The notes under the pieces are model-generated. The model was not told the origin of the DNA, did not search any database, and saw only the letters and a program-made list of their open reading frames with translations. A stretch of 50,308 bases of DNA from the IMG/VR virus record IMGVR_UViG_3300010334_002806, positions 1-50,308 of that record. One strand, 5' to 3'. The position numbers and the translations under genes are program-made. The stretch comes from a virus. Shown here piece by piece: positions 8,491 through 46,103 of the stretch (position 1 is the first letter of the stretch; each line of letters starts with the position of its first letter).

Positions 8491-9342
8491 ATGAAAGCAC
8501 AACCAATTAACAATGTATTTTTAAGTTTAACAAAGCCAATTCAAGACACAATAAAAATGGGAGATATTGAATTATACTTAGATGGTTCTTATAGACCCGA
8601 ATGGAACGCAACAGTAGTAGGTGAAGTGTATAGTTTACCTCAATATCCAAAGGGAGATAATGCAGATGTGGTTTCAAAATTAAAAGAAGGTGATAAGGTA
8701 TTATTTGATTATTCAGTAGTTGCAGAAAGGAAATTTGAATCAGATGGAGATGCGTTCACAGAAACCACAAAAGATAGCCCATACAATCAAAGATTTACAA
8801 ATGGCAAAGGCGAAAAGTTAGTAATAATTGCCTTTCAAGGAAAAATAGCAAAACAATGGGTCGGCACCTATGTTGACAAAAGAGGTAATTTTATAGACGG
8901 AGTGCAAGGCTCTGAACACGATTTAGAAAGATGGAAGTCGCAATTTAATTTTAATTCAACACAATCATTTGTATTTAAAAATTTATTAGATACGGGTAGC
9001 AAAGATGTTTGGAAAGCAGATTATAGAGATATTTTTGCAAAGATTAAAAATGACGAAGTAGTAACAGTTAGCAATAGAATTATATTAGAACCAATAGATA
9101 TGGAAATACCCAAAGATGTAATTAAGCAAATGGGTATAGTAGATACAATAAATGCCAAGGTTAGATTAGGAGATAGGGCCAAGGTTTTATCGGCACCCGA
9201 AGATTCAAATTTAAAAAAAGGAGATGTAGTTGGGTTTGAACCACAATACCTTGAAAAATACGAATATAACAACAAGAATTATTATTTAATAAAATCCTAT
9301 CGAGCATTAGGAGTATGGGAGGGTACAAATTATGGCATATAA
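8491..9342 (+). CDS. GroES-fold-like protein, possibly a double barrel (283 aa)
   Basis: No exact family match, but two segments read like GroES. Residues about 20-85 have DIELYLDGSYRPEW, VVGEVYSLP and LKEGDKVLFDY. Residues about 190-283 have SNRIILEP, DRAKVLSAPEDSNLKKGDVVGFEP and a final YLIKSYRALGVW, like the ending of co-chaperonins. Between them lies a different segment. It could be a phage co-chaperonin that works beside the canonical GroES at 7317, or a virion protein with a similar beta-barrel. It overlaps the next structural gene by 11 bases, so it belongs to the virion block. Confidence 0.45.
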   Translation: MKAQPINNVFLSLTKPIQDTIKMGDIELYLDGSYRPEWNATVVGEVYSLPQYPKGDNADVVSKLKEGDKVLFDYSVVAERKFESDGDAFTETTKDSPYNQRFTNGKGEKLVIIAFQGKIAKQWVGTYVDKRGNFIDGVQGSEHDLERWKSQFNFNSTQSFVFKNLLDTGSKDVWKADYRDIFAKIKNDEVVTVSNRIILEPIDMEIPKDVIKQMGIVDTINAKVRLGDRAKVLSAPEDSNLKKGDVVGFEPQYLEKYEYNNKNYYLIKSYRALGVWEGTNYGI

Positions 9343-11405: not shown

Positions 11406-11408
11406 TAA

Positions 11409-23229: not shown

Positions 23230-25275
23230 ATGGGTAAAAAAATAAAAATATACGGAACGGAAATAGAATTGCCCGAACAACCTCCTATTGAAGAAATAGA
23301 AAATTGGGGAGAAAATGATACTAAAAATCAATTTTGGAAAAGATTAGATTTGCCTAATTTTTTTGAATATGTTGAATATGATAAAGAAGAAAATGTATTA
23401 CTTACAAAAGAACAAGAAATATATGCACGAGAGGAAGTAAGAAGGTGTAAGCAAGGGTTTTGGTTTATGAATAATGGTATTCCAACTTATATAACGGGTA
23501 AAAATTATTTTTATTTACAATGGTGGAAATTAGAAGATGATATATATGCAGATTATAGAGATACAGATAGAAGATATTATTTGTATTTAAACCATTGGGA
23601 AAACATGGCGTGGTGTTTGGGTATAATCAGAGGTAAAAAACGTAGAGAAGGAGCAACATCACAAGCAACTTCTAATTTAGTATATGAAGCAATATTTTTT
23701 AAAAATAGTAATTGTGGATTAACAAGCAAAACAGCAGTGGATGCTGGAACTGCATTTACAAATATGGTTTCTTTTGGTTATAGGCAGTTACCCGTTTTTT
23801 TAAAACCAAAACAAATAAATAATAAAGATAGTGTTACCAAATTGGTATTTGCACATAAATCTATAGATATAAAAGATGGAAAAGGAAATGCAATAGATAA
23901 TAATACAGGGCATCGTTCAAGTATTGATTTTCGTGCCCCTAGTCCAAACGTATACGATTCAGGTCGTTTAAGTAGAGGTCTTTTTGATGAAGGTGGTAAA
24001 TGGGAAATAGATTTTTCAAACTTTATATCAAAAGTAAGTAAGACATTAGTAAAAGGTGCTAAAAAAGTAGGTTTTATGGAACTTCCATCAACTTGTAATA
24101 GTATGTCGCAAGGAGGACAAGCGTATTTTGATGAATGGATTAAAACAAAAAAGTTACAAAAAAATAGAACTGCAAATAGATTAGTTTCTTATTTTAGTTC
24201 ATCGTATGATGGGTACGAAGGTTTTATTGATAAATATGGAATGAGTGTTATTAATGAACCAACGGAAGAACAATTTGAATATTTGGTAGAAAAATATGTA
24301 GGAGCAACTGAATTAGATGAAGAAGATATTAAAATGGGGTCAAAACAATATCTTTTAAACAAAAGAAAGGATTTAGAAGGGAAATCATTGGAGGAGGAAA
24401 TTCGTATGAATCCATTTGATGAAAAAGAAATGTTTATGCTTCGAAATTCTAATTGTCATTTTGATGCAGTATTATTAAATGATTTGTATGAGATTGCAAA
24501 AATGAATGAAAAAGAAGTAATAGAATATGGCAATTGGACTTGGAAAGATGGAATACCTTTTACGGAAGCAATATGGGAAACAACTTCAAAAGAATACGCA
24601 AGATGGCATAGAGCAAAGAATTTTAAGATACCTCAAGGAGATACTTATACTAAAAGAGGAAATTTATTTATACCAAAAAATCCCGTTCAGTTTATTATGG
24701 GATGCGATCCGTTTCAAAATTCAATAGTAGAATCAGGAGAAGGGTCAAAAGCAAGTAGTGGAGTATTAAATAGGTATGATATTGGTAATAATGACCCCGT
24801 ATATGATATGATGTTTGTATGTAAATATCACGCAAGGCCAAAAATGGTAGAATTATTTCATAATGATATGGCTTTACAATGTTTTGCTTATGGAGGCCAA
24901 ATGTTAATAGAGGCAAAAATGGATGGTGGATTAAGAAAGTATTTTGAAGATAATTACCTAGCCGCATTTATGATAATGATGCCTGGGAAATCTACTTATG
25001 GTATAGACCCAAATTCAGATAATAAGGCCCTAATGGTAAACCTATGGGAACAATATATTTTAACACATGGAAAAGAAGGTAAAATAATATATCCCGAAGT
25101 AATTGATAGCAAATACGATGGATTGCTTAAATTTGATGTAACCGATACGGAAAAGTCAGATGAAGTTATGGGCTTGGGGTGGACTTTGGTAGCCGATTAT
25201 TACAAAAAAGCCAATTTTAAAAAAATAAATAAAACAAATATTGAAGATTTCTTTAAAATGAAAAAAGTATCATAA
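23230..25275 (+). CDS. terL: Terminase large subunit
   Basis: 681 residues. ATPase: an atypical Walker A GKKRREGATS (residues 135-144) and Walker B GLFDEGGKW (D253, E254). Nuclease (RNase H fold): FIMGCDPF (Asp near 492), MLIEAKMDGG (Glu near 560) and GIDPNSDNKALM (Asp near 592-597). The motor pumps DNA into the prohead through the portal and cuts the concatemer. The KRREG-T form of Walker A recalls terminases of crAss-like phages. The stop shares a base with the next gene start. Oddly, the portal gene is 6 kb away, with a sugar-gene cassette between. Confidence 0.85.
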   Translation: MGKKIKIYGTEIELPEQPPIEEIENWGENDTKNQFWKRLDLPNFFEYVEYDKEENVLLTKEQEIYAREEVRRCKQGFWFMNNGIPTYITGKNYFYLQWWKLEDDIYADYRDTDRRYYLYLNHWENMAWCLGIIRGKKRREGATSQATSNLVYEAIFFKNSNCGLTSKTAVDAGTAFTNMVSFGYRQLPVFLKPKQINNKDSVTKLVFAHKSIDIKDGKGNAIDNNTGHRSSIDFRAPSPNVYDSGRLSRGLFDEGGKWEIDFSNFISKVSKTLVKGAKKVGFMELPSTCNSMSQGGQAYFDEWIKTKKLQKNRTANRLVSYFSSSYDGYEGFIDKYGMSVINEPTEEQFEYLVEKYVGATELDEEDIKMGSKQYLLNKRKDLEGKSLEEEIRMNPFDEKEMFMLRNSNCHFDAVLLNDLYEIAKMNEKEVIEYGNWTWKDGIPFTEAIWETTSKEYARWHRAKNFKIPQGDTYTKRGNLFIPKNPVQFIMGCDPFQNSIVESGEGSKASSGVLNRYDIGNNDPVYDMMFVCKYHARPKMVELFHNDMALQCFAYGGQMLIEAKMDGGLRKYFEDNYLAAFMIMMPGKSTYGIDPNSDNKALMVNLWEQYILTHGKEGKIIYPEVIDSKYDGLLKFDVTDTEKSDEVMGLGWTLVADYYKKANFKKINKTNIEDFFKMKKVS

Positions 25276-25898
25276 TGGAAAATTGGATTAATTTTTTTGA
25301 TAAGATATATGTTATAAACCTAGCCAAAAGAACTGATAGGTTATTGCAAATTGCAGAAGAATTAGAGAGGTATAATATACCATTTGAGTTAGTTACCGCC
25401 ATAGAGCAAGAAGATGGAGCAGAAGGGCTTAAAATGACAATGCAAGGCATATTTAAGAAATCCATTGAAAAAAGGTATGAATCCATATTAGTTTTTGAAG
25501 ATGATGCTTATTTTGTAGAAGGGGTAGAATATACTAACGAAGTGTTAAATAATGCCATGGATCAATTACCCAAATATTGGGATATGCTATTATTAGGGGG
25601 CCAACCGGTAATGGGTTTTACCGGCCAAATATCCCCTAATTTATTATCGTTGGAAGATTGTTATGCCACACATTCAGTAGCTTATAGCATTAATTGCATG
25701 AAAAGAATAATGGCCTTGGGTATGGAATCACCAATAGACAATTGGCTAGTAAAACACATTCAAACACAAAAAAGAACATATATAACATACCCATTATTAG
25801 CAAGCCAAAGGGCAGGAATTAGCGACATAGGTAAGGCATATATAGATTGGAACCCATTTATAATAAACAAATACAACCAAAAATTAAACGAATTATGA
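25275..25898 (+). CDS. GT25-family glycosyltransferase
   Basis: 207 residues. The start IYVINLAKRTDRLLQIAEEL (VINL then R19, D21, R22) and the acidic ILVFEDDAYF (E75, D76, D77) are the signature of the LPS-type GT25 family, which adds galactose or glucose from a nucleotide sugar to a cell-surface or protein glycan. The next segment, WDMLLLGG, also fits. It is the first gene of an eight-gene cassette and starts on the last base of the terminase stop codon. No membrane helix. Donor and acceptor are unknown. Confidence 0.85.
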   Translation: MENWINFFDKIYVINLAKRTDRLLQIAEELERYNIPFELVTAIEQEDGAEGLKMTMQGIFKKSIEKRYESILVFEDDAYFVEGVEYTNEVLNNAMDQLPKYWDMLLLGGQPVMGFTGQISPNLLSLEDCYATHSVAYSINCMKRIMALGMESPIDNWLVKHIQTQKRTYITYPLLASQRAGISDIGKAYIDWNPFIINKYNQKLNEL

Positions 25899-26593
25899 GG
25901 CAATTATCAATTGTAATCCCATCTTGGGAAAGAGTGGATATGACCATAAATAGCTTTAAAAAAGTACACAACGACAAAAGAGTACATTCTATTGTTATAG
26001 TGGATGATGCAAGTTCAATGGCGACTTACAAAGAATTAGAGGCAAAATGTAGCCAATTTTCAAAAGTAAGTTTATATCGAAACCAAAATAACAAAGATTG
26101 CTATGCAAATAAATTATTAGCAGTAAGCTATTCACCAACTGATTTTTGCATATTACTAGATTCTGATAATCAAATAGATAAGTATTATATTGATGCTATT
26201 TTTAATCAAGAAGATTGGGATTGGGAAACCATATTTCAACCTACATTTGCAAGACCAATGTTTGATTTTAGGGCATTTAATGGATTGACAATTAAGAAAT
26301 CCAATGTGGCAAAATATATAGCAAAACCATTGTTTGATACAGCTTTAAATGCCATGAACTACTTTGTTAACAAAAACAAATACATAGAAGTTTGGGATGG
26401 TAATGTTGACCCACATAGTTCAGATTCAATATTTCAAAATTATAATTGGCTAAACGCAGGGTATAAAATAAAATTTTTAGAAGGAATGGAATATGAACAT
26501 TTGGTACATGATGGAAGTCATTATAAAGCAAATTCGCATAAATCACCTGAATTTTATCAAGAAATATTACAAAAATTAGGAGAATTAAGGTAA
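25895..26593 (+). CDS. GT2-like (GT-A fold) glycosyltransferase
   Basis: 232 residues from the ATG at 25895, which overlaps the previous stop (ATGA). The open frame extends upstream to 25847, but that part overlaps the previous gene. Motifs: LSIVIPSWERVDMTINSF, IVIVDDAS (D37, D38) and CILLDSDNQID, the DxD metal-binding loop (D89, D91). It would transfer a sugar from a nucleotide donor. The length is short, so it is probably a soluble, single-domain enzyme. It belongs to the sugar cassette. Confidence 0.75.
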   Translation: MRQLSIVIPSWERVDMTINSFKKVHNDKRVHSIVIVDDASSMATYKELEAKCSQFSKVSLYRNQNNKDCYANKLLAVSYSPTDFCILLDSDNQIDKYYIDAIFNQEDWDWETIFQPTFARPMFDFRAFNGLTIKKSNVAKYIAKPLFDTALNAMNYFVNKNKYIEVWDGNVDPHSSDSIFQNYNWLNAGYKIKFLEGMEYEHLVHDGSHYKANSHKSPEFYQEILQKLGELR

Positions 26594-26630
26594 TTAATTT
26601 AATATTGCATTGGTTATAACACAACTAATT

Positions 26631-27380
26631 ATGCCACATTGTACTTTTATACCTGCGGGGAGGCTTGGGAATTGGTGTTTTGAATGTGCTACTGCGATAG
26701 CATATAGTTTAAAGCATAATTTAGATTTTACTGTTCCAATCGATACGGATAATATAAAATGGAATCCTATATATTGTTTGCATTTGGCAGATTTAAGCTA
26801 TAACCCATATTTAGATAAGGTGGATTTATGGGAAAATAGTCATAGTTATGAAGAATTGCCATTTGATGAATCATGGAGGCATAAAAATATAGTTATACAG
26901 GGTTATAGGCAATCAGAAAAGTATTTCAAAGAGTATAGACAAGAAATATTATACCTATTTAACTTACCTTATAAGTTAACCCCAATATGTAGTATTCACG
27001 CTAGATATGGAGATTATTTAACCATAGAAGGTAAGCATATAGTAATAAACGAAGAATACTTGACCAAGGCAATGGATATGATAAAAATAAAAACAGGACT
27101 TACTAGATTTAAGGTTTTTTCAGATGATATACCATATTTTAAAAAACAATTAGGACACTTATACGATTTTGAATATAGTGGAAATACTGATGAATTAAGC
27201 GACCTAATAGAAATAAGTTGTTGCCATAGTCAGATTAATTCTAGTAGCACTTTTTCTTGGTGGGGAGGATGGTTAAACCAAAATAAAGAAAAGGTTGTAA
27301 TTACCCCCAAAAAATGGTTTCAAGATGGGCATGGTTTAGACACAAAAGATATAGTACCAAACGAATGGATAAAAATATAA
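26631..27380 (+). CDS. GT11-family (alpha-1,2-fucosyltransferase-like) glycosyltransferase
   Basis: 249 residues from the ATG at 26631; the frame is open further from a TTG at 26610, but the protein starts with the family pattern only after the ATG. Visible GT11 motifs: GRLGNWCFECATAIAYSL (residues 10-27, usually GxLGNQMFQYA), HARYGDY (123-129, the donor phosphate-binding HxRRGDY), KVFSDDIPYFK and NSSSTFSWWGGWLN (203-216). GT11 enzymes normally use GDP-L-fucose. Here no GDP-fucose synthase is nearby, but a GDP-mannose 3,5-epimerase is. The Gln to Trp change in GNQMF and the first Arg of RRGD replaced by Ala might affect specificity. Confidence 0.8.
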   Translation: MPHCTFIPAGRLGNWCFECATAIAYSLKHNLDFTVPIDTDNIKWNPIYCLHLADLSYNPYLDKVDLWENSHSYEELPFDESWRHKNIVIQGYRQSEKYFKEYRQEILYLFNLPYKLTPICSIHARYGDYLTIEGKHIVINEEYLTKAMDMIKIKTGLTRFKVFSDDIPYFKKQLGHLYDFEYSGNTDELSDLIEISCCHSQINSSSTFSWWGGWLNQNKEKVVITPKKWFQDGHGLDTKDIVPNEWIKI

Positions 27381-27382
27381 TT

Positions 27383-27988
27383 ATGAGTTACGCATTAGAA
27401 AACATAGATATAGGCGGCAAAATGTTTGATTTTAAAGAATATTATGACATGGTTGCAGAAAGACTGCCTAATAATTGTAAAATAGGCGAAGTGGGTATAG
27501 CTAATGGCAAGTCGGCAATTTATTTGGCAGAAAAAATATTATCATTAGGGAAAAAAATAGATAGATTTGTTTTAATTGATTCAATGCAATATGGCGGTAA
27601 TTATCAAATACAAACAATTATTAATCATTTAATAAAAAGCGGAGTAGGACAACATTGCGAATTGATTATAAAAAATAGCCTTGATGCAAGTTGCGAATTT
27701 CCAAATGATTATTTTGATTATGTTTTTATAGATGCTTCACACGAATACGAATTGACAAAAGCTGATATTAGACTTTGGTATAGAAAAGTAAAAGGAGATG
27801 GCTTTTTAGCAGGTCACGATTATAACGCAGATGAGGTAAATAGAGCAGTTGATGAAGTATTATCAAAAGAAATTGTTTATGTTAATCAAAATTTTTCAAC
27901 TGAAATATTAAAATTAATAGATACTGAAAATGATTTTGGAGTTTGGGAATATACAATAAATTGGCAAACTAAAAAAATAATAAAATAA
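27383..27988 (+). CDS. Class I SAM-dependent methyltransferase (Methyltransf_24-like)
   Basis: 201 residues from the ATG at 27383, two bases after the GT11 stop. The SAM-binding loop is IGEVGIANGKSAIYLAEKI, followed by RFVLIDSMQ (acidic residue at the end of strand 2) and FDYVFIDASHEYELTKADI, then GFLAGHDY. This is the pattern of methyltransferases that methylate sugars or small molecules next to glycosyltransferase genes. The acceptor is unknown; a sugar hydroxyl is likely from context. The last base of its stop overlaps the next start. Confidence 0.75.
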   Translation: MSYALENIDIGGKMFDFKEYYDMVAERLPNNCKIGEVGIANGKSAIYLAEKILSLGKKIDRFVLIDSMQYGGNYQIQTIINHLIKSGVGQHCELIIKNSLDASCEFPNDYFDYVFIDASHEYELTKADIRLWYRKVKGDGFLAGHDYNADEVNRAVDEVLSKEIVYVNQNFSTEILKLIDTENDFGVWEYTINWQTKKIIK

Positions 27989-28950
27989 TGAAAACAGCAT
28001 TAATAACTGGTTCTAGTGGGTTTATAGGTGGTCATTTAACAAAATATTTAAAAAATAAAGGATATTTTGTAATTGGTGCAGATATAGAACAACCTAAATA
28101 TGAAAAACCTACAATATTTTATAATTATGATTTAAGGAATCAATTATTATGTAAATATATATTTCAAAATCACAAAAACATTGATGAAGTATATAATCTT
28201 TCATGCATTATGGGCGGCATGGGGTTTATAGGGAATAAATCCCATAGTTATGATATAATGGTTGGTAGCACTCAAATAGTATCAAATATAATAGAATGTA
28301 GCATAGAGTTTGGAGTTAAAAAATCTTTTTATAGCAGTTCTGCTTGTGTTTATAATATGCGCCTACAAGAAGGTACCGATAATGTATCATTAAGGGAATC
28401 AGACGCCTATCCTGCTATGCCTGATTTAATGTATGGATGGCAGAAATTGCAATCAGAATTGATGTATCAATCAGCTTATGAACAACACAATTTAAACGTA
28501 AGAATTGCTAGATTTCATAATATTTTTGGCGAAGAAGGAATATGGTTTGGCGGGAAAGAAAAATATCCTGCCTCAATTTCAAGAAAAGTGGCAGAAGCAA
28601 AAGATGGAGATGAAATAGAGGTATGGGGTGATGGGAAACAAACAAGAAGTTTTTTACATATTAATACTTGCATTGAGGGTATAATGAAATTAATGGAAAG
28701 TGATTATAATCAACCATTGAATATTGGAAGTGATGAATTAGTAAGTATTGATGAAGTCGCAAATATGGTAATTAAATTATCCGGAAAAAATATTTTAATA
28801 AAACATGATTTAACTAAGCCACAAGGAGTAAGAGGTAGAAATAGTAATAATGAGTTAATTGAAAAAGTTTTAAAATGGAGGCCAAATACAAAATTGATAG
28901 ATGGCTTAACTACTACATATAATTGGATAAACAAACAAGTAAATAAGTAA
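27988..28950 (+). CDS. GDP-mannose 3,5-epimerase
   Basis: 320 residues, an extended short-chain dehydrogenase. The NAD loop is GSSGFIGGH (residues 8-16). The match to plant-type GDP-mannose 3,5-epimerase is detailed: MGGMGFI, SSACVY with C120, YGWQK (Y149, K153), RFHNIFGEEGIWFGGKEKYPAS with K192, WGDGKQTRSFLHI and GVRGRNS with R282. These positions line up with C145, Y174, K178, K217 and R306 of the Arabidopsis enzyme, with almost no gaps. It should convert GDP-D-mannose to GDP-L-galactose (and GDP-L-gulose) with catalytic NAD. A functional sugar donor for the GT11 neighbour is inferred. Confidence 0.9.
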   Translation: MKTALITGSSGFIGGHLTKYLKNKGYFVIGADIEQPKYEKPTIFYNYDLRNQLLCKYIFQNHKNIDEVYNLSCIMGGMGFIGNKSHSYDIMVGSTQIVSNIIECSIEFGVKKSFYSSSACVYNMRLQEGTDNVSLRESDAYPAMPDLMYGWQKLQSELMYQSAYEQHNLNVRIARFHNIFGEEGIWFGGKEKYPASISRKVAEAKDGDEIEVWGDGKQTRSFLHINTCIEGIMKLMESDYNQPLNIGSDELVSIDEVANMVIKLSGKNILIKHDLTKPQGVRGRNSNNELIEKVLKWRPNTKLIDGLTTTYNWINKQVNK

Positions 28951-28954
28951 TAAT

Positions 28955-29590
28955 ATGATGATACCATTTGACTACTTGGTCGATAAATATAAAATAGATA
29001 TAAAAGGAGTCGCACACTTTGGCGCAAGCTATGCGCAAGAAAGATTTGAATATGATAAATATTGTAAAGGTAAAGTTATATGGGTTGAGGCTATTCCTAA
29101 TGTGTATAATGAACTTGTAGAAAACTTAAAATCATTCACAAATCAAAAAGGCATTAACGCTTGTTTAAGCAATGTAGATGGTCAAGAAATAATTTTTAAT
29201 GTTTCAAATAATGAAAGTCAAAGTTCATCAATGTTAGAATTAGGTACACATTCTATAATTCATCCCGAAGTGCATTATGTTGAAAAATTATCAATGATAA
29301 CAAATAGAGCAGATACATTATTTACTAAAGAAGATTTTAAAGATATAAATTTTCTTAATGTAGATTTACAAGGAGCAGAACACTTAGCCATAGAAGGAAT
29401 GGGTGATTTGATTAAAAATATTGAATGGGCTTTATTAGAAGTAAACAAAAAAGAAGTTTACAAAGGTTGTATGACAATAGATAATATGGATTATTTTATG
29501 TTACAAAGGGGATTTGAAAGAGTAGAAACAGGAGTTTTGGTAGCTGATTCATGGACTGATGCACTTTATAAAAGAACTTTTAAAGTATGA
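28955..29590 (+). CDS. FkbM-family methyltransferase
   Basis: 211 residues. Typical FkbM signs: VAHFGASYAQERFEYDKYCKGKVIWVEAIP (SAM loop and strand-2 acidic residue), VSNNESQSSSML, then FLNVDLQGAEHLAIEGMG and WALLEVN. FkbM enzymes O-methylate sugars and other natural products. It starts at either of two consecutive ATG codons (28955 or 28958). The stop overlaps the next gene (ATGA). It is the second methyltransferase of the cassette, so two different positions of the glycan may be methylated. Confidence 0.85.
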   Translation: MMIPFDYLVDKYKIDIKGVAHFGASYAQERFEYDKYCKGKVIWVEAIPNVYNELVENLKSFTNQKGINACLSNVDGQEIIFNVSNNESQSSSMLELGTHSIIHPEVHYVEKLSMITNRADTLFTKEDFKDINFLNVDLQGAEHLAIEGMGDLIKNIEWALLEVNKKEVYKGCMTIDNMDYFMLQRGFERVETGVLVADSWTDALYKRTFKV

Positions 29591-30408
29591 TAAAAGTACC
29601 CCATGAATTTACCCCTACAATAAATACCATATACCCACATGGTAATTTAATTATTTTTGAAGATTGGTTTTCTTATAACGATATACCCAATACAAATAGA
29701 CAATACCTACCAATCCAATGGACTGCATATCATGTAAATAATAATTACGGGAATGATATAGTAGCAATTAAAAGATTACAAGATTATGTAGATTTATTAC
29801 CAAGAAATTTTAAATATTTTACCATTGTTCAATATGATGATGGTTGTTTAATAGACTTTAAGGATTTAGATATACTTATTTTTAGCATGAGTAAAAAAAT
29901 AGGAGTGGAAATACCACTTCTTTGTATGCCACATAAATTTGAATTTAATGGCGAAAAAGAAATTTACGCATCATTTATAGGTACACATACTCACCCAATA
30001 AGAGAACATATATTTAATATAAAAGACAATAACTATTATATTTCAGACAATCCTCATAATGAAAAAGATTTTTGTAATATATTGGCTTCTTCGTTATTTG
30101 GTTTATGTCCCAGGGGATATGGTTTAAATAGCTTTAGAATAGCTGAATGTATGCAATATGGCACTATACCCGTTTATATATCAGATGAATTTATAGGAGT
30201 TTTTGATGCAAATTTTGAGAAATATGGGGTACTTGTAAAAGAAAAAGATGCACATAGAATTACTGAAATTTTATATTCAATCCCATTAGAAATTGTATAT
30301 GAAAAACAAAAAAAAATAAAAGAATACTACGATAAATATTATACTTATGCAGGGGCCTTTAATCAAATAATAACACACTTACAAAATGAATATAGTAGTA
30401 ATACATGA
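29587..30408 (+). CDS. Exostosin-like (GT47-type) glycosyltransferase
   Basis: 273 residues. Residues about 165-195 carry the exostosin signature: SSLFGLCPRGYGLNSFRIAE followed by CMQYGTIPVYISDEF, the GT-B donor site of GT47-type enzymes. The N-terminal half is a divergent acceptor domain. No membrane anchor, unlike eukaryotic exostosins. It overlaps its upstream neighbour by 4 bases and its downstream neighbour by 23 bases. Confidence 0.8.
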   Translation: MIKVPHEFTPTINTIYPHGNLIIFEDWFSYNDIPNTNRQYLPIQWTAYHVNNNYGNDIVAIKRLQDYVDLLPRNFKYFTIVQYDDGCLIDFKDLDILIFSMSKKIGVEIPLLCMPHKFEFNGEKEIYASFIGTHTHPIREHIFNIKDNNYYISDNPHNEKDFCNILASSLFGLCPRGYGLNSFRIAECMQYGTIPVYISDEFIGVFDANFEKYGVLVKEKDAHRITEILYSIPLEIVYEKQKKIKEYYDKYYTYAGAFNQIITHLQNEYSSNT

Positions 30409-30931
30409 TTTTAGTGCCAACGATAGATTTGATAGGTTAATGAAGGAATTTACTGAACAAGGTATAAGATACTACACAATATTACCCGCAATACATAGTC
30501 AAGAATCAGCTTTAAAAGGAATTAATTTAGCTCACAAACAATGCGTTCAATATGCCATAAATAATGGCTTAAAAGAAATATGCATAATGGAAGATGATGT
30601 TAAATTTACAAGCCCAAATAGTTTTAAACATTTTTTGGAAACAAAACCAAGCGATTTTGATTTATATTTAGGTGGAGTTTATTTAGGTGAAATACTACCA
30701 AATAATTTAATTAAATCTTTTGCAGGGTTACATTGCTATATTATTAAAGAGCAATTTTACAATACATTTTTAAACGTACCGGATAATGAACATATAGATA
30801 GAGCATTATCAAATCTAGGTACATTCTATGTTTCATACCCATTTACTTCAATTCAATATAATGGGTATTCTTACAACACTAAACAAGTAATGAATTACGA
30901 TAGTTTACTTGATAATAAATTGCTTTATTAA
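30386..30931 (+). CDS. GT25-like glycosyltransferase (second, shorter)
   Basis: 181 residues. It keeps the acidic strand IMEDDVKF (E69, D70, D71) with the following FDLYLGGVYLGEI, as in the GT25 enzyme at 25275. The N-terminus (NIVVIHDFSANDRFDRLMKEF) is a diverged version of the VINL--R-DR segment. It is the last gene of the cassette, and a 13-bp inverted repeat follows. The first and last genes of the cassette therefore belong to the same broad family. Confidence 0.65.
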   Translation: MNIVVIHDFSANDRFDRLMKEFTEQGIRYYTILPAIHSQESALKGINLAHKQCVQYAINNGLKEICIMEDDVKFTSPNSFKHFLETKPSDFDLYLGGVYLGEILPNNLIKSFAGLHCYIIKEQFYNTFLNVPDNEHIDRALSNLGTFYVSYPFTSIQYNGYSYNTKQVMNYDSLLDNKLLY

Positions 30932-31001: not shown

Positions 31002-31544
31002 ATGTCCGAAATTTGGAAAGATATAGAAGGGTATGAGGGATGTTATCAAATTAGTAATTATGGTAATTTTAAATCTTTAAAAAGAGAATATTTTACCAAT
31101 GGCGCAAGAAGATTTACTGAAGAAAAAATATTAAAAGATAGACTTAGTACAGATGGGTATTTAAGAGCAAGTTTATCATTAAATGGTAAAATAAAAAATA
31201 CAACAATTCATAGATTGGTAGCTAAGACATTTATTCCAAATTTAGAAAATAAGCCAGAAGTTAATCATATTGATGGTAATAAAAAAAACAATAATTTTAA
31301 TAATTTAGAATGGGTTAATCGAAGCGAGCAGATGATACATGCAATGAAAAATAATTTAAACAACATTAGGAAAAATGTAGAAGGATTGCCAAACCCAAGC
31401 AATAAACTTGTTATTGATTACAATACAGGTATTTTTTATGAATCAGCAAAACAAGCATCAATTGCAAAAGGAATAAAATATTCCACATTAAAAGGAATGT
31501 TGACTAATAGAAATTCAAATAGAAGTGGGGTATTCTATATATAA
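31002..31544 (+). CDS. HNH homing endonuclease with NUMOD4 domain
   Basis: 180 residues. Residues 3-45 are a NUMOD4 DNA-binding module (EIWKDIEGYEGCYQISNYGNFKSL). Residues about 68-108 are the HNH nuclease: HRLVAKTFIPN, VNHIDGNKKNNNFNNLEWV (H89, N96, N101). The C-terminus (residues about 144-170, SAKQASIAKGIKYSTLKGML) is a NUMOD1-like helix-turn-helix. Such enzymes spread by cutting cognate DNA lacking them. It is free-standing: neither neighbour gene is split and no intron or intein is visible. It sits between the sugar cassette and portal. Confidence 0.88.
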   Translation: MSEIWKDIEGYEGCYQISNYGNFKSLKREYFTNGARRFTEEKILKDRLSTDGYLRASLSLNGKIKNTTIHRLVAKTFIPNLENKPEVNHIDGNKKNNNFNNLEWVNRSEQMIHAMKNNLNNIRKNVEGLPNPSNKLVIDYNTGIFYESAKQASIAKGIKYSTLKGMLTNRNSNRSGVFYI

Positions 31545-31557
31545 ATTAATATTTTAA

Positions 31558-33888
31558 ATGCAACAAGCAACTAATACCTACCCATCTCATCAAATTGACC
31601 CTAAATCTAAGGGTTACGATTTTATCTTGCAATATGTGAAAGCCGCTTTTGCAGATTCAAGGGGTTTCGTACCAAATAATATGTTGAATTTTGGTCAATC
31701 CAAAATGAATGAGATTAGACAATACGCATTAGGCAGACAATCAACAACAAAATATAAAGAAAAATTAGGAGCAGATGAACAAACCAATAAAAGTTGGTTA
31801 AATGTTGATTGGACACCACCTTCATTCATTACAAAATTTAGAGAAATTGCTATTTCGAAATTAGTTCAAAGAAGATATGATATTAATGTTTATGCAGTTG
31901 ACCCATTAGCCAAAAGTGATGAAGATGAATACTTTAATAAAATGAAGGTTAAAATATTGATGAAAGAGGCGGCACAAAAAGCAGGAGCAGAAGATATAGC
32001 AAATAGTCCAATGTTACAACCTGCACCAAATGAAGCTGCCGATATGGAACAATTATCAATGGAGCAGCAATTTGGCTATAAACATATTATGGCAATGGAA
32101 GCTGAAATGGCAGTTGCATTGGCTTTTCAAAATAATAAATTTGATGAATTAAGAAAAAGAACAATAGAGCACTTATTTGATTTTGGAATTGGTGGATATA
32201 CTGAATATATTGATGAAAATGGACAAGTAAAAGTAAGAGAAGTAGATCCTGAAAATATGGTATTATCTTATTGCTCTAAAAATGATTTTTCAGACTTAGT
32301 GCATTGGGGAGAGGTAAGAGAAGTATATGTTGGAGATTTAGCACCATATTTTACACCCGAACAAATGGATAAGATTGTAACATCAGTTGCAGGTAGATTT
32401 GGCAATCCATCAAACTTTATGTATGGAACCGATTATTCTAAATATTGGAATAGATTTAAGGTATTAGTATTAGATTTTGAATTTTTATCTTGGAATGATT
32501 ATACTTATAAATCAGAGGTGGATAATAGAGGTAATGAAAGATTTGGCAAAACAAAATATAAGAATGAATTAAAGTCTAATGATAATGCCAAAATGGGTAC
32601 AATCCCCAATATGGTAGATGATGAAAATAGAGGAGAAGCACAACCCGTTTATATGCCAGTAACTAAAAAAGTAGTATATAAATGCAAATGGCTAATACAA
32701 ACCGATTATATGTATGATTGGGGTATTTCAGAAAACCAAATTAGAAAACAAGCAAGTTGGTGGGACACTAAATTAAATATTCAATTATACTCTTGGAATT
32801 TTTATAAAATGAGATTTGCGGGTATTACTGAAAGATTAATACCATTAGAAGACCAAGCGTGTTTACATTGGTTTAGGTTACAAGATATGTCTAATAAACT
32901 AATACCTTATCTTATTACCTTGGATTTGAATGCAATAGATGGTATTGATTTTGGTGGTGGTGGAGATAAGTTAAAACGAGAAAAAGTGCTAGATTTTATC
33001 TTTTCTAATTTTGTTGTACCATATAGAAGCGATGATAAATTAACGCAAAACCCAAATTACAAACCCGTTTCTATTGAGGCATCGGGCCAATTGGTAATTT
33101 TTGGACAACTATATGACCAATTAAATAGAACACTTGATTTAATGAGGCAAATATCGGGTTTAAATGAACTTACCGATGGTTCAACACCAAATGCAAAAAC
33201 ATTGGTACCCGTTGCAAATGCAGCTATGGAAAGCACTAATAATGCTTTGTATTTAATGTCTTTTGCAGATAAGCAATTAATACAAAATACCGCAGATGCT
33301 ATTGTATCAAAAACACAAATAGCAGTAAAATTAGGAAAAGTGGAAGGATATGCAAAATCATTGGGTATGGAAAGTATTAAATTTTTACAAATTAACCCTA
33401 ATATATCAATGCACGAATTTGGTATATTTATTGAAGATGCACCACAAGACTTTGAAAGACAACAATTATTACAAGAATTAAATTTAAGAGATAGCCAAGG
33501 TTTAATAGAACCAGAAGATAAAATATTAGTCATGAGTTGTAGAAATCTTAAAATGGCTTCTATGGTTTTAGCTTATAGAATTAAAAAAAGAAAAGAAAAG
33601 GCCCAAGAATTTGAAATGCAAAAGATTCAGCAAAATAATCAAGGCAATCAGCAAACAGTTCAAATTAGCGAAGATGAAAAAAGAAAAACATTACAAGTAC
33701 AATTAGAAGCAGATATTCAAAGAATAAATGCAGAAAAACAATGGGATTATATTATTGCAATGGGTAAAAAAGAAAAAGATGTAGAAGAAGCTAATATTCA
33801 AAGCCAAGCTAAAATTATAGCACAGCAAATATCAGCAGATTCTAAAATACAAATACATAATCAAAAAATGAGCAAAAATGAAAGTTAA
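31558..33888 (+). CDS. Portal protein
   Basis: 776 residues. The middle part (residues about 455-560) has the sequence order of portals of crAss-like phages: IDFGGGGDKLKREKVLDFIFSN, FGQLYDQLNRTLDLMRQISGLNELTDGSTPNAKTL (the stem and crown helices), then a long helical C-terminus rich in Gln, Lys and Glu (residues about 690-776, the barrel). It is followed by the scaffold and capsid genes. The dodecameric portal is the DNA entry ring and nucleates capsid assembly. The N-terminal 60 residues are a helical clip-like region. Its end overlaps the ferritin-like gene by 11 bases. Confidence 0.7.
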   Translation: MQQATNTYPSHQIDPKSKGYDFILQYVKAAFADSRGFVPNNMLNFGQSKMNEIRQYALGRQSTTKYKEKLGADEQTNKSWLNVDWTPPSFITKFREIAISKLVQRRYDINVYAVDPLAKSDEDEYFNKMKVKILMKEAAQKAGAEDIANSPMLQPAPNEAADMEQLSMEQQFGYKHIMAMEAEMAVALAFQNNKFDELRKRTIEHLFDFGIGGYTEYIDENGQVKVREVDPENMVLSYCSKNDFSDLVHWGEVREVYVGDLAPYFTPEQMDKIVTSVAGRFGNPSNFMYGTDYSKYWNRFKVLVLDFEFLSWNDYTYKSEVDNRGNERFGKTKYKNELKSNDNAKMGTIPNMVDDENRGEAQPVYMPVTKKVVYKCKWLIQTDYMYDWGISENQIRKQASWWDTKLNIQLYSWNFYKMRFAGITERLIPLEDQACLHWFRLQDMSNKLIPYLITLDLNAIDGIDFGGGGDKLKREKVLDFIFSNFVVPYRSDDKLTQNPNYKPVSIEASGQLVIFGQLYDQLNRTLDLMRQISGLNELTDGSTPNAKTLVPVANAAMESTNNALYLMSFADKQLIQNTADAIVSKTQIAVKLGKVEGYAKSLGMESIKFLQINPNISMHEFGIFIEDAPQDFERQQLLQELNLRDSQGLIEPEDKILVMSCRNLKMASMVLAYRIKKRKEKAQEFEMQKIQQNNQGNQQTVQISEDEKRKTLQVQLEADIQRINAEKQWDYIIAMGKKEKDVEEANIQSQAKIIAQQISADSKIQIHNQKMSKNES

Positions 33889-34375
33889 ATCATTACTTAG
33901 TAATAGTATGAAAAGTTGGTTTCAAAAGTCAATGTCAAGCGAATTGTACGCATCAAACTTATATAAACATATTGCTAATCAACTTCAAAAAATAGGATTT
34001 TTCGGAGGTCAAGAATATTATTTAAAAGAAAGTGCAGATGAATTAACCCATTATCAAATATTGGTTGACATAGTAAATGATTTTGGTGATGTAATTGATG
34101 TTCCAAGGGTAGATTCAATGAATGAAGATATAAATGGATTAGATGATGCTTTATATATTGCATACGAAACTGAAATGGATTTATTAAATCAATATAAAGA
34201 ATTTTATAAAATGGCAGAAGATGAAGATTGTGCATTATCTCAATCACTACTTCAATTTTTAGAAATACAAAGAAAGTCGGTAGGTGAATATGGAGATTTA
34301 ATTAGTAGATACAATTTATGTGGTTCAAACGAAGCAGCTATTTTAGACTTTGATAAATATATTGGAAAAAAATAA
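33878..34375 (+). CDS. Ferritin-like diiron protein
   Basis: 165 residues with four long helices. The diiron ligands line up with bacterial ferritin: E22 in SSELYASNLY, E55 and H58 in DELTHYQ, E97 in AYETEMDLL, and Q131 in the LEIQRKSVGEY segment, where ferritins have VEEQ. Ferritins oxidise Fe(II) and store iron in a 24-subunit shell. Here the gene overlaps portal and precedes the scaffold, so the product may be packaged, or may protect DNA from oxidation. It lacks a signal peptide. The extra C-terminal 20 residues (SNEAAILDFDKYIGKK) are not ferritin-like. Confidence 0.75.
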   Translation: MKVKSLLSNSMKSWFQKSMSSELYASNLYKHIANQLQKIGFFGGQEYYLKESADELTHYQILVDIVNDFGDVIDVPRVDSMNEDINGLDDALYIAYETEMDLLNQYKEFYKMAEDEDCALSQSLLQFLEIQRKSVGEYGDLISRYNLCGSNEAAILDFDKYIGKK

Positions 34376-34398
34376 AATAACAAATAAAAACAACAATT

Positions 34399-35544
34399 AT
34401 GGCAGAAGAACAACAACAAGAAGCAAAACCAGTTTATACATTAGGTTCGGGAATACCACAATTTAATGATAAGCAAGGACAAGCAGTAGAGCAACAACAA
34501 GAAGCAGCTTCAACACAAGAAGAAATTGTATCACAACAAGAAGTTTCAACGGAGCAAAAAGATGATACCAACGAAGCGCAAGTAGAAAAAGATGAAAATT
34601 CAAGTTCTTTTTCAATACCAACTTATAATGAAGATGGTACCTTGGATACAACAAAAACAGAAGAAAAGCCAATTGTTGCATCTAGTGATTGGAGAGAGGA
34701 ATTAAAAAAAGCAGATAGAAAAGAAGTATTAAAAGAATTGGGTTATGATGACTTTATTTTAGAATTTGCTGAATTTAGAAAAAATGGCGGTGATGCTTAT
34801 AAATATTTAGAAGCAAAAGCATTTGATTGGAATAAAGTTTCACCACAAGATTTAGTTATTGATGACCTAAAATCTCAATATCCAAATTTAACAGATGATA
34901 AAATAGAAAAACTTTATCAAGCTAAATATAAACAATCAGAATTTGCATCAGATGATGATAAAGAAATTGGAGCAATTCAATTAGAAGCAGATGCAGATTT
35001 GATTAGAAATAAAAGAATCAAAGAACAAGAGTCGTTTCAGATACCACAAATTGAAAAAAGACAAGAGGTCGATAATCAACAAGCAGTATTAGAGCAACAA
35101 AGGTTACAAGAAGAAAGCCAAAAACAAGTCTTAAACTTCTTTAAAGAACATGAAGCAACCAAATCATTAATTCAAAGCAAAAGAGTTGCTATTGAATTGG
35201 GTGATAATGGTAAATTTAACTTCAATGTAGATAAACCAGAAGTATTAATGGATGTGGTTTTAAATAGCGAAAAATGGCAAAGAGCAATAGCGACAAATCC
35301 GCAAGAGGCAGATGTGTCAAAATTAGTTCCAGATGTATCAAAATTACAACGAATTGCCTTAGCTGCTTTAAATCCTAATTACGAAAAAGACTTGGTAAAT
35401 TATGGCAAATCATTAGGCTTAAAAGCTATTGTAGAGGAAGGGCAAAACGCCAAAAGACCTACGGGAGCAAAACCATCCCAAGCCAATGAAACACTTTCCG
35501 AATCATTTAAAATGAGAGCAAGGTCGGGAACAATAGGGGGGTAA
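34399..35544 (+). CDS. Capsid scaffold protein
   Basis: 381 residues. The first 90 are Gln/Glu-rich and disordered (EEQQQEAKPVY, SQQEVSTEQKDD), residues about 100-240 are charged helices and the C-terminus is basic (AKRPTGAKPSQ). Scaffolds are acidic, helical proteins encoded just before the major capsid protein, as here. It starts behind the leader ACAAATAAAAACAA. No protease domain is visible. Confidence 0.6.
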   Translation: MAEEQQQEAKPVYTLGSGIPQFNDKQGQAVEQQQEAASTQEEIVSQQEVSTEQKDDTNEAQVEKDENSSSFSIPTYNEDGTLDTTKTEEKPIVASSDWREELKKADRKEVLKELGYDDFILEFAEFRKNGGDAYKYLEAKAFDWNKVSPQDLVIDDLKSQYPNLTDDKIEKLYQAKYKQSEFASDDDKEIGAIQLEADADLIRNKRIKEQESFQIPQIEKRQEVDNQQAVLEQQRLQEESQKQVLNFFKEHEATKSLIQSKRVAIELGDNGKFNFNVDKPEVLMDVVLNSEKWQRAIATNPQEADVSKLVPDVSKLQRIALAALNPNYEKDLVNYGKSLGLKAIVEEGQNAKRPTGAKPSQANETLSESFKMRARSGTIGG

Positions 35545-35571
35545 TATTTTTAAAAATTAAAATGCATTAAG

Positions 35572-36924
35572 ATGGCAAATAACATTGGAGCAGTCTCCAA
35601 ATCCTACGTCAGCTCAATCGATCCAGTTTTAGATACGAGAGAGATTAACAAATTAGTTACTGATATTCAAAACGAAGATTCATTAACAGATATCCTTTGG
35701 TTGGGGGATAGAAAAAAACCAATCGCAACAGGACAACCACTTTATTACACTTTTGTGAATGAATCATTGTACAAATTATTAGATACAACAGGCGGTACTG
35801 TCAATGGTACAGGTACAACAGTTGTAAACTTTACTTGTACTGCTGCTACTTCTGGTCAAGTAAGAAAAGATGATATTGTTTTAGTTCCAACAGGCACCGT
35901 AAGTGCTATTGTTACTAACGTAGTAACTACTTCTGGTGTTGATACAGTTTATATTAAATCAGTTTCAGGTGCAAACATGACCGTAACTGCTGGCGATAAA
36001 TTATCAATCATTAGCGTTGCAGTTGGTGAAAACTCTATTTCTCAATCAAACTTACGTTTTGGTTTAAATAAGTACAGTAACAAATATCAAATTTTTAGAG
36101 AGATTTCTAAAATTACTGATGTTCAAAACGCAGCTACTATTGAAGTAGAATTTAACGGACAAAATAAATTTATCGTTAAAGACCATTTAGAAAAAGCAAT
36201 TTTATTAAAAGGTAAAATTAACGCAGCATTTATTGCAGGCGATATGTCAACTACTACTTTCAGCGATACTAACCCTACATTAGTAGATGGCAATAGTGAT
36301 AGTGTTGATGGTGGTGGCCCAGTACAAACAACTCGTGGATTGAATAAATACATTGAAATGTATGGTTCAACTTTAACAAATGGTACATTAGGAACAGTAC
36401 AAAAAACAAACATTGATAATGCTTTGGATGTATTAATTGCTAATCGTGCTCCTAAAGACTATTTAGTATTTGGTTCTAGTGCAGTTAAAAGAGCACATGA
36501 TACATATTGGAAGGCATTAGGTTCTTCTGGTGTTCAATCAGTTCGTATTGTAGTAGATGGTAGAGAATTAGATACTATGGTAGATAAGGTTAGTTATGGT
36601 GGATTCCAATTAAATTACATGACTATGCCAATTAATGACCAACCAGTATTATTTGGTCAAACAGTTATTAACAAATCAGCTTTCTACATTCCTTACAACA
36701 ATAAGGTTAAAGTACAAGGTGGTGGTTATGATTCTGCTATCAGAGTAAGATATGTACCTTCACAAACTAAATTTGGTAATGACATGATTGGTGAAATCCA
36801 TACAGGTGCTTTATCTCCAGTTAATCCTAACGGAGATGCATCAAATTGGGTTACTTCTTTCATCACAAGCCAAGGCTTAGAATGTTTAGGTGTTCAACAT
36901 TTCTTGCGTCAACAAGTTATCTAA
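35572..36924 (+). CDS. Major capsid protein
   Basis: 450 residues, a fitting size for an HK97-fold shell subunit. Its N-terminus (KSYVSSIDPVLDTREINKLVTDIQNED) resembles the N-arm and E-loop start. It has an inserted Ser/Thr/Val-rich beta domain (residues about 80-150), an alpha/beta body (NKYSNKYQIFREISKITDVQ; GLNKYIEMYGSTL; KDYLVFGSSAVKRAHDTYW) and a beta-rich C-terminus. Codon use is shifted toward more C-ending codons, as expected for a highly expressed gene. It follows scaffold and is closed by a strong terminator. Assigned by order, size and codon usage; no diagnostic motif exists. Confidence 0.75.
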   Translation: MANNIGAVSKSYVSSIDPVLDTREINKLVTDIQNEDSLTDILWLGDRKKPIATGQPLYYTFVNESLYKLLDTTGGTVNGTGTTVVNFTCTAATSGQVRKDDIVLVPTGTVSAIVTNVVTTSGVDTVYIKSVSGANMTVTAGDKLSIISVAVGENSISQSNLRFGLNKYSNKYQIFREISKITDVQNAATIEVEFNGQNKFIVKDHLEKAILLKGKINAAFIAGDMSTTTFSDTNPTLVDGNSDSVDGGGPVQTTRGLNKYIEMYGSTLTNGTLGTVQKTNIDNALDVLIANRAPKDYLVFGSSAVKRAHDTYWKALGSSGVQSVRIVVDGRELDTMVDKVSYGGFQLNYMTMPINDQPVLFGQTVINKSAFYIPYNNKVKVQGGGYDSAIRVRYVPSQTKFGNDMIGEIHTGALSPVNPNGDASNWVTSFITSQGLECLGVQHFLRQQVI

Positions 36925-36943
36925 TTTTAGATAAAAATATGGG

Positions 36944-36970
36944 AAGGGGTGGTTTTTTGCCACCCTTTTC
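36944..36970 (+). terminator. Rho-independent terminator after the major capsid gene
   Basis: Stem AAGGGGTGG (36944-36952) with CCACCCTTT (36960-36968), loop TTTTTTG, then a T-rich tail. It ends the portal-to-capsid transcript. Confidence 0.85.
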
Positions 36971-36971
36971 T

Positions 36972-43940: not shown

Positions 43941-46103
43941 ATGTCCGATAAAACAGTTAATTTAGGATATTTGCCAGATTTAATTACCTATGATTCCAAT
44001 AATAATATTATCCTAGGTCAATCAGTAACAGGTGGTGGTAAACTTCAAGTGGGTGGTGATGTAAGTATCACAGGAAGCTATAAAGTTAATGGTGTTGCTT
44101 TTACTGGCATCCAAGGCACTCAAGGCATCCAAGGCACTCAAGGCATCCAAGGTATTACAGGTGGTTCGGGTATTCAAGGATTAGTTGGTACTCAAGGAAA
44201 CCAAGGCATTCAAGGTACTCAAGGCATCCAAGGCACTCAAGGCATTCAAGGCAACCAAGGTGCCACCGGAACGGGATTACAAGGTGCACAAGGATTACAA
44301 GGTGCACAAGGTATAAAAGCAGATAACTACTTAACAACATCTACCACTTCATTATTAATAGGTACAGGTTCTAAGTCATTAACCATTGGGACGGGGTTGG
44401 CTTATTCAATTGGTCAAAGCATAATAATAGCAAATAGTTCCTCTAATACTATGTCGGGCATTGTAGATACTTATAATTCATCTACGGGTGCTATGACTGC
44501 AACTATATCATCTATTACGGGTTCAGGTACTTTTGCATCTTGGTCGGTAAATTTGCAAGGGGCTGCGGCAGGTGCTCAAGGTAGCCAAGGTTCTCAAGGA
44601 ACTGCTGCTCAAAATGGTACTCAAGGAGCACAAGGTATTTCAGGCACAAATGCTCAATCAGTTCAAGGTGCTCAAGGAGCACAAGGATATAATGGATTAG
44701 GTTATGATGGGTTAACATCAACTTCATCAATGACATTGCAAACGGGAAGTATAACTTTTACCGTAAATAAAACTACTTTAACAGGTGCTTATGTAGTAGG
44801 CCAAAGAGTTAGAATAACTTATCCTACTAATACTTTATATTGGATGGAAGGCTCAATTACAGCCTATTCTGGAACTACCTCAATGACTGTTTTAATTGAT
44901 TTGGTAAATATATCAGGCAATACTTATAATACTTGGAATATAGGCATTACGGGTTCTATGGGACAACAAGGCTTACAAGGTACTCAAGGAGCACAAGGCC
45001 AAAGTATTACGGGTGGACAAGGATCACAAGGCCCTACTGGGAGTGTAGGTCAAGCTACACAAGGAGCACAAGGAAGTATAGGGGTGCAAGGTAGTTTGGG
45101 TGTTATTGGAACTGGATATAATGGATTGTCATCTACCACAAGTTTATTATTATCAACGGGTGCTATTAGTTTCACCACAAATTTATCTTCTTCAAATTCA
45201 GCGTTTAGCGTTGGTCAAAGAGTAAGATTATCATATACCACAAATCCCACTTTGTATTGGATGGAAGGTGTTATAACATCTTTTTCAAGTACTACAATGG
45301 GTGTTACTATTGATTTAGTTAATGTATCAGGTAATACTTATGCAAGTTGGAATATTAATACTGCGGGTCAAACAGGAGCAATAGGCTTACAAGGAACACA
45401 AGGAGCACAGGGCCCACAAGCATCAACAGGAGCACAAGGAGCACAAGGCCCTAGCGGTGGAGTAGGGCAGTCAATACAAGGCTCTCAAGGCTCAACAGGT
45501 TCAGTAGGCCCACAAGGTGCTTTAGGGACTAATGGATCAAATGGATCAAATGGTTCTCAAGGCTCTCAAGGCTTTGCAGGTGCGACAGGTGCTCAAGGTG
45601 CGACAGGTTCAACCGGAGGAAGTGGTCAAGGTGTTCAAGGTTATACAGGTTCAACCGGAGGGTCTGGAACACAAGGGGCACAAGGGTATATTGGTGTTCA
45701 AGGTTATACAGGTTCAACAGGAAGTGGCTTTACTTCTATATCACCTGCATATAATACCGCAATTGTAATAAGTAATGGTTCTGGAAGTTCAGCTTATACA
45801 AATTCATCTATTTATGTAAGTGGTAATACAATTTATGCAGATGCTTTTTACCAAAATTCATCAAGGAGTTTAAAAACCAATATTTCTGATTTTAATGAAA
45901 ATGCAGTTGATTTATTGAAAAAAGTAAAAATAGTTACATTCTATTATAATAATGATTTAGAAACACCGCATATTGGTTTTATTGCAGAAGATACACCACA
46001 AGAGTTTAGTGGTATAAAGCAAAATTCAATGGATGTACCATCAGTAGTTGGTACATTAGTAAAGGCAGTTCAAGAGTTATCGGATAAAATAAATAGCAAA
46101 TGA
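43941..46103 (+). CDS. Collagen-like tail fibre with S74 intramolecular chaperone (720 aa)
   Basis: Gly-X-Gln triplets (GIQGTQGIQG) form collagen-like stalks at residues about 57-125, 210-250, 340-386 and 475-595. Three similar beta domains of about 85 residues separate them; two of these share YWMEG, TIDLVN/LIDLVN and SGNTY. The C-terminal 80 residues are a peptidase S74 (endosialidase chaperone) domain: SRSLKTNISDFNENAVDLLKKV, then HIGFIAEDTP. S74 domains trimerise the fibre and cut themselves off before the conserved Ser. This should be a trimeric receptor-binding fibre. Confidence 0.8.
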   Translation: MSDKTVNLGYLPDLITYDSNNNIILGQSVTGGGKLQVGGDVSITGSYKVNGVAFTGIQGTQGIQGTQGIQGITGGSGIQGLVGTQGNQGIQGTQGIQGTQGIQGNQGATGTGLQGAQGLQGAQGIKADNYLTTSTTSLLIGTGSKSLTIGTGLAYSIGQSIIIANSSSNTMSGIVDTYNSSTGAMTATISSITGSGTFASWSVNLQGAAAGAQGSQGSQGTAAQNGTQGAQGISGTNAQSVQGAQGAQGYNGLGYDGLTSTSSMTLQTGSITFTVNKTTLTGAYVVGQRVRITYPTNTLYWMEGSITAYSGTTSMTVLIDLVNISGNTYNTWNIGITGSMGQQGLQGTQGAQGQSITGGQGSQGPTGSVGQATQGAQGSIGVQGSLGVIGTGYNGLSSTTSLLLSTGAISFTTNLSSSNSAFSVGQRVRLSYTTNPTLYWMEGVITSFSSTTMGVTIDLVNVSGNTYASWNINTAGQTGAIGLQGTQGAQGPQASTGAQGAQGPSGGVGQSIQGSQGSTGSVGPQGALGTNGSNGSNGSQGSQGFAGATGAQGATGSTGGSGQGVQGYTGSTGGSGTQGAQGYIGVQGYTGSTGSGFTSISPAYNTAIVISNGSGSSAYTNSSIYVSGNTIYADAFYQNSSRSLKTNISDFNENAVDLLKKVKIVTFYYNNDLETPHIGFIAEDTPQEFSGIKQNSMDVPSVVGTLVKAVQELSDKINSK
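44106..44150 (+). repeat. 18-bp tandem repeat coding for Gly-X-Gln triplets
   Basis: GGCATCCAAGGCACTCAA is present two and a half times head to tail. Related, less exact units continue to about 44255. They encode collagen-like triplets and are likely to vary in number. Confidence 0.8.

Follow-up and report, generated by a model that had tools for sequence, protein, structure and literature searches.

A predicted ferritin family with invariant two-iron-site residues recurs among virion genes of uncultured phages

Iron in phages has mainly been discussed as tail iron and in connection with metabolic genes that act in infected cells. Ferritin has been reported in giant viruses (PMC7136201), and Dps-like proteins and Mn-catalases have been described in gut Bacteroidetes phages (Benler et al., 2021, PMC8008677). 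The latter are also iron/ROS proteins of the ferritin superfamily, from phages that partly share the probable host phylum of those studied here, but in the accessible parts of that paper they are not FtnA-type and are not placed beside a portal gene or polyvalent giants. For Salmonella phage Sajous1, gp217 was predicted to be a ferritin by Phyre2 threading, and the protein was detected by mass spectrometry in a phage preparation (PMC10892097). The protein described below has a similar ferritin-like assignment. That assignment came from threading, and we dropped Sajous1 and its relative Vi01 as a precedent because PF00210 found no match in Vi01, the relative that was searched in place of Sajous1; none of the Vi01 ORFs in the stretch tested matched our family either. 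Proteins with polyvalent domains have been predicted to be packaged and injected (Iyer et al., 2017, PMC5512222), and their domains occur in the most frequent neighbours of the phage ferritins; the ferritin studied here differs from them in being a separate ORF, and the word ferritin is absent from the main text of that paper as available. No paper on the present family was found in the open-access literature, and its placement among head genes is not described in the accessible parts of PMC8008677, PMC7136201 or PMC10892097.

The window, that is the whole stretch of 50,308 nucleotides analysed here (IMG/VR record IMGVR_UViG_3300010334_002806), contains an ORF with an ATG start that matches the Pfam Ferritin family (Table 1) with E 7.9e-14 and 52.2 bits, compared with a curated cut-off of 24.5. 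Bacterial and archaeal ferritins of the PDB were matched by HMMER with E of about 5e-9 when a single sequence was used and 7e-16 with a 22-row profile. These matches are far beyond chance and by sequence identify the ORF as a ferritin. The window protein and its relatives also matched PHROG 16594 (E 7e-10 and 1.6e-11, and 9.5e-8 for the L286 protein), a group without a functional name in PHROGs v4, to which the family now gives a likely function. Viral-contig searches with three alignments (best 80 of 118, best 80 of 165 and best 80 of 150 relatives), combined with portal and major capsid protein (MCP) loci, yielded 289 ferritin ORFs encoding 104 distinct proteins; all counts over 104 below refer to distinct proteins and not to all relatives.

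Table 1. Features of the window that bear on the ferritin gene
Feature	Length	Position	Strand	Basis
GroES-like protein		8491..9342	+	phrog_13932 E 3.4e-8; Cpn10 E 3.2e-4
Giant putative ejection protein	1787 aa	17511..22874	+	function from gene order
Glycan/methyltransferase-type block	8 genes	25275..30931	+	Pfam
Portal protein	776 aa	31558..33888	+	phrog_6547 E 5.9e-63
Phage ferritin	165 aa	33878..34375	+	PF00210, AF2 model, Foldseek/VIA-align, ferroxidase ligands E22, E55, H58, E99, Q131
Putative scaffold	381 aa	34399..35544	+	position between portal and putative MCP
Putative MCP	450 aa	35572..36924	+	position; same-place Panino gene annotated virion structural protein
Terminator-like hairpin	13 pairs	36941..36971	+	consensus match only

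An AlphaFold2 model of the window ferritin, with 14 relatives in the alignment, had a mean pLDDT of 91.5 and five predicted helices (residues 9-38, 42-68, 88-115, 120-148 and 152-164). FtnA-type ferritins topped its Foldseek ranking. VIA-align superposed the model on Thermotoga ferritin (1z4a_A) with a Z score of 24.4 and an rmsd of 1.3 over 162 residues and on E. coli FtnA (1eum_A) with a Z score of 23.8 and an rmsd of 1.1 over 159 residues; with Archaeoglobus ferritin included, the five-helix fold common to these bacterial and archaeal non-heme ferritins extends over 159-162 residues at 1.0-1.3 Å. The protein is thus predicted to have the four-helix bundle and C-terminal E helix of a non-heme ferritin. 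Dps proteins have no E helix, share their ligands across the subunit interface and frequently carry a basic N-terminal tail. The best structural matches shown were FtnA- or H-type ferritins with an E helix and none was a Dps, and with its predicted E helix, ligands of the FtnA type within one subunit and a predicted pI of 4.5 the window protein was ruled out as a Dps. The residues of the E helix and the acidic pI resemble those of FtnA. Across the family the predicted pI is 4.36-5.31 (median 4.60), the proteins are 161-171 residues long, and none has a strongly basic N-terminus, a terminal tail or a targeting peptide.

Alignment with E. coli FtnA paired E22 with E17, E55 with E50 and H58 with H53, which would supply the A-site Glu, the bridging Glu and the His, and paired E99 with E94 and Q131 with Q127, the probable B-site Glu and nearby Gln. 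All five residues are invariant in 104/104 proteins, so that the A/B ferroxidase ligands of FtnA-type ferritins are common to the phage family. The first-pass annotation had named E22, E55, H58 and Q131 correctly but had chosen E97 as the fourth ligand, two positions off: the register of E99 with FtnA E94 was repeated in HMMER alignments with both the single sequence and the 22-row profile, and position 97, Glu in 70 of the 104, is elsewhere D, N, Q, S or K. E97 was therefore ruled out as a diiron ligand. Further residues are also invariant in 104/104 (N34, Q37, E51, S52, Y59, Q60, N67, D68, Y106, G136, G139 and D140). Pairwise identity among the distinct proteins is at least 37%, and the median dN/dS was 0.136 over 398 sequence pairs with dS of 0.1 to 1.2, indicating strong purifying selection on the family. 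Because the five ligands stay invariant down to 37% identity under this constraint, selection appears to act on the chemistry.

The phage proteins depart from bacterial FtnA at site C (E49, E126, E129 and E130), where Glu occupies the E126 and E130 positions in 0/104 and the E129 position in 2/104. Site C marks the FtnA subtype only. With its loss, turnover may differ from that of FtnA or be poor. H-chain ferritins also lack site C, and the human H chain carries Ala144 at the position of FtnA E130, which is Ser or Ala in the phage family. The two-iron centre without site C is thus as in the eukaryotic H chain, but the phage protein is shorter and by sequence nearer to bacterial and archaeal ferritins. 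Bacterioferritins have a haem-ligating Met after the bridging Glu, and a Glu and a His replace Gln127 and residue 130. The phage protein was ruled out as a bacterioferritin because L56 and Q131 are invariant and position 134 is Ser in 55/104 and Ala in 49/104. At the FtnA Tyr24 position, family position 29 (window codon 33962-33964), a conserved Tyr near the iron site is present in 58/104 proteins, including that of the window, and is swapped for Trp in 46/104.

Compared with FtnA-type cellular ferritins, to which the window protein is 21-22% identical, the family is phage-borne and its gene sits among virion genes. The highest identity between a phage and a cellular ferritin was 32%, in a comparison with four cellular ferritins from outside the Bacteroidota hosts, and a starred branch of the tree separated the 104 phage proteins from these four rows. 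A recently host-derived auxiliary metabolic gene was rejected on the same grounds, as no close cellular relative was found among the four. A scan of genome contigs returned two loci, both on short contigs that carry a phage cassette with giant neighbours. With four members as tblastn queries, no member was found among 50,697 records of isolated phages; the sole hit, 24% identical and located in an unannotated 2.7 kb S. aureus phage record, is most likely a cellular ferritin. By these sequence searches the family has so far been seen only in uncultured phages. Each of 18 of the 20 virus records searched carries a single copy and the other two carry none. Phage ferritins, and several phage Dps models, are also listed in BFVD.

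In the window the ferritin and portal ORFs share 11 bases, confirming the overlap that had been noted together with the ferritin-like nature of the product. The ferritin gene is separated by 23 bases from the next ORF, after which comes the putative MCP gene. The earlier placement between portal and scaffold is correct as a position; the scaffold label itself derives from gene order and from weak or structural-protein matches in relatives. Among the tblastn matches listed, the portal is 24-26% identical to portals of Flavobacterium, Cellulophaga and Maribacter phages. By phmmer the putative scaffold weakly matched (E 1.6e-4) the protein encoded in the same place of Maribacter phage Panino, and neither it nor the putative MCP matched a curated family in Pfam or PHROGs. 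Six terminator-like sites were found in the region compared with 2.2 expected from shuffles; there is none on the + strand at 31617-35892, and one weak site precedes the strong hairpin after the MCP gene. This hairpin is the likely end of a portal-ferritin-scaffold-MCP message.

The statement that nearly every gene in this region is structural was only partly borne out: the interval between TerL (23230-25275) and the portal holds a block of eight glycan- or methyltransferase-type genes (GT25, GT2, GT11, methyltransferase, epimerase, FkbM, GT47 and GT25) as well as an HNH endonuclease gene. Because non-structural genes lie in the late region, the position of the ferritin gene does not by itself make its product a virion protein. 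TerL and portal adjoin in L004, L005 and L006, three distant relatives, with no glycan block between them. HNH endonuclease ORFs occur at varied junctions in the window (31002-31544) and in L023, L026, L034, L088 and L139; these junctions lie before the portal, after the MCP and after tail genes, which suggests homing between essential late genes.

We classified the 104 ferritins by the genes immediately before and after them. A cassette placement, flanked by a giant protein on one or both sides, accounts for 75, in 63 of which both end motifs were recognised. The portal-scaffold slot of the window accounts for 22, including one whose contig ends after the ferritin; one (L080) directly follows a GroES-like gene, and six are placed otherwise. 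L287 is the one protein of the 104 without an assigned neighbour class. Five of the six others immediately follow an unrelated portal, or a portal and a MuF gene together: a phrog_21 portal in L286 and L269; a phrog_12082 portal in L284 (of which L283 is a copy), where the second gene further on is an acidic scaffold-like ORF; and, in L085 and L086, a phrog_113 portal with a MuF-like minor head protein, as annotated in L085. Including the window type, four non-homologous portal types precede the ferritin directly or with MuF in between. Finding four of six non-cassette placements after portal or MuF had a rough binomial probability of 6e-7 to 5e-4, a guide only, since independent placements and guessed gene counts are assumed. 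By this rough estimate, its position after the portal in four unrelated head modules exceeds what chance would give, and this recurrence is a stronger argument than location alone. In 100 of 103 cases the ferritin starts at -16 to +12 bases relative to where the upstream stop codon ends. Among 37 portal loci the ferritin follows the portal in 26; of the 11 without it, two (L024 and L029) are uninformative because the contig stops in the portal gene or at its end.

The place of the gene is not fixed, and it moves between unrelated virion modules. Portal and scaffold genes adjoin in L028, L037 and L039; the G002 and G003 contigs (L037 and L039) have no ferritin. In the relative G001 (L080), too, portal and scaffold adjoin, and the ferritin (9914-10408) is found about 27 kb upstream of the portal, between a GroES-like homologue (9039-9902) and a virion structural gene. 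The 22 ferritins of the portal slot do not group as one clade (AU p 3.9e-5), from which it follows that the gene has been exchanged between phages. The window ferritin is at most 62.2% identical to the other portal-slot ferritins, in phages whose portals are about 75-78% identical to that of the window where measured, but 64.8% identical to the ferritin of a cassette phage (L156) whose portal is 24% identical. In 18 of 26 cassette or other records the portal was recognisable from that of the window, at 20-24% identity. Exchange across portals this different, or undetectably related, argues against a specific contact with portal or scaffold. A fixed portal-scaffold role was rejected because the ferritin lies elsewhere in L080 and most relatives and because the portal-slot ferritins do not form a clade.

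In several cassette-type relatives the ferritin is directly preceded by homologues of the giant protein of the window; the match to the L088 giant preceding a ferritin had a phmmer E of 5e-65. Pfam and PHROGs gave nothing useful for the window giant and no relative of it was found in isolates. In two annotated relatives of the upstream giant a long ORF comes next, annotated as tail fibre in one, and these records contain no ferritin. We infer from gene order that the upstream giants are ejection proteins. They share a conserved C-terminal end, and the downstream giants a conserved N-terminal motif. Pfam searches of 16 downstream giants found LPD38 in four, ART-PolyVal in three, Zeta toxin in two, and LPD39 and MuF_C in one each; individual proteins among the 14 upstream giants have InPase, methylase, helicase, Zeta toxin or weak ART-PolyVal domains. 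The motif M..CTYxF..DGx heads the L152 protein (8496-13619) and the 16 downstream giants, whose polyvalent domains vary and whose phages apparently have different hosts.

We favour, with about even confidence, the explanation that the protein is a functional ferroxidase whose production keeps pace with head assembly and which acts inside the infected cell. The ferritin would be read from the head-gene message in translational coupling with the portal, and so would be made when heads are assembled and filled. A cage, presumably of 24 subunits although modelled here as a monomer, would form and bind Fe2+ at the two-iron centre (E22, E55, H58 and E99, with Q131); the Fe2+ would be oxidised with O2 or H2O2 and the ferric product stored. 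Free iron and peroxide would in this way be taken from the dying cell while phage DNA is copied and packaged, and DNA and assembly would be protected. The mobility of the gene between unrelated virion modules is expected for a self-contained enzyme, which needs timing and not a partner. Counting against a ferroxidase in the cell are the close relatives that have no ferritin at this site, among them the G002 and G003 contigs without any; nor does a plain soluble enzyme predict the recurrence after four unrelated portal types or beside polyvalent giants. If this explanation is right, phages would be under selection to control iron or peroxide while DNA is packaged. A family so far seen only in phages, with an apparently intact two-iron site, strong purifying selection and repeated placement by portals and giants, is a concrete candidate for iron handling in particle making.

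Less probable, though a serious competitor, is that the ferritin enters the procapsid with portal and scaffold or with ejection proteins and stays in the virion with an iron centre or core, where it would protect packaged or entering DNA or be delivered with polyvalent proteins. The 75/104 giant-ferritin-giant cassettes suggest this, as do the placements directly after portals of the phrog_6547 (window), phrog_21 and phrog_12082 types and after portal and MuF-type protein in L085/L086, with the binomial estimate given above. The giants also carry domains (ART-PolyVal, LPD38, LPD39, Zeta toxin, InPase, methylase-helicase) of proteins predicted to be packaged and injected (PMC5512222), and weak matches to the ferritin fold came from BFVD models that bear the name prohead protease. 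Yet none of the 289 ferritin ORFs is longer than 220 residues, so that fusion to a virion or other protein was seen in 0/289; polyvalent proteins occur here as neighbours of the ferritin and not as fusion partners. The absence of a tail or targeting peptide in proteins of 161-171 residues also weighs against cargo, exchange among phages with unrelated portals implies no co-evolution with a docking partner, and the non-structural glycan genes occupy the same late region. A 24-subunit ferritin cage is about 12 nm across, too wide for the portal channel. The first-pass suggestion of iron in virions or in their assembly is thus partly supported, as a link to the head-assembly stage seen with four portal types and the giant cassettes; a specific portal or scaffold contact is disfavoured. 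Slightly less probable again is the general form of the idea, that a dedicated head ferritin is found in tailed phages with several unrelated types of head, co-translated with portal, MuF or ejection proteins and trapped in the procapsid, which would protect packaged or entering DNA from iron and peroxide or be delivered with polyvalent proteins. The iron load of such virions would then be a defined one, produced by a protein of the phage itself.

It is very improbable that the ferritin fold has been kept as an assembly or structural factor with no iron chemistry: the placement among head genes, the family-specific invariant residues outside the iron site and the loss of site C could be read in this way, but at least some of the five A/B-site residues should have disappeared from an inert scaffold, and all five are kept in 104/104. 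Least probable of all is a Dps-like protein coating DNA during packaging, a strict form of the first-pass idea that the protein protects DNA at that stage, because despite the Dps-type proteins reported in gut phages (PMC8008677) and the phage Dps models in BFVD, the best matches, the FtnA-like ligands within one subunit, the E helix, the acidic pI and the N-terminus do not fit it.

Other features of the window lie away from the head genes. Two small ORFs with imperfect repeats are found at 318-1226, the second of which matches an RHS repeat family (E 1.6e-10). A collagen-repeat fibre at 43941-46103 has a Peptidase_S74 (endosialidase chaperone) domain at its C-terminus. A PemK/MazF-like toxin-type protein at 47557-47931 (Pfam E 1.1e-6) and an NYN-domain protein at 48577-49176 (E 7.6e-9) are encoded close to the right end of the contig.
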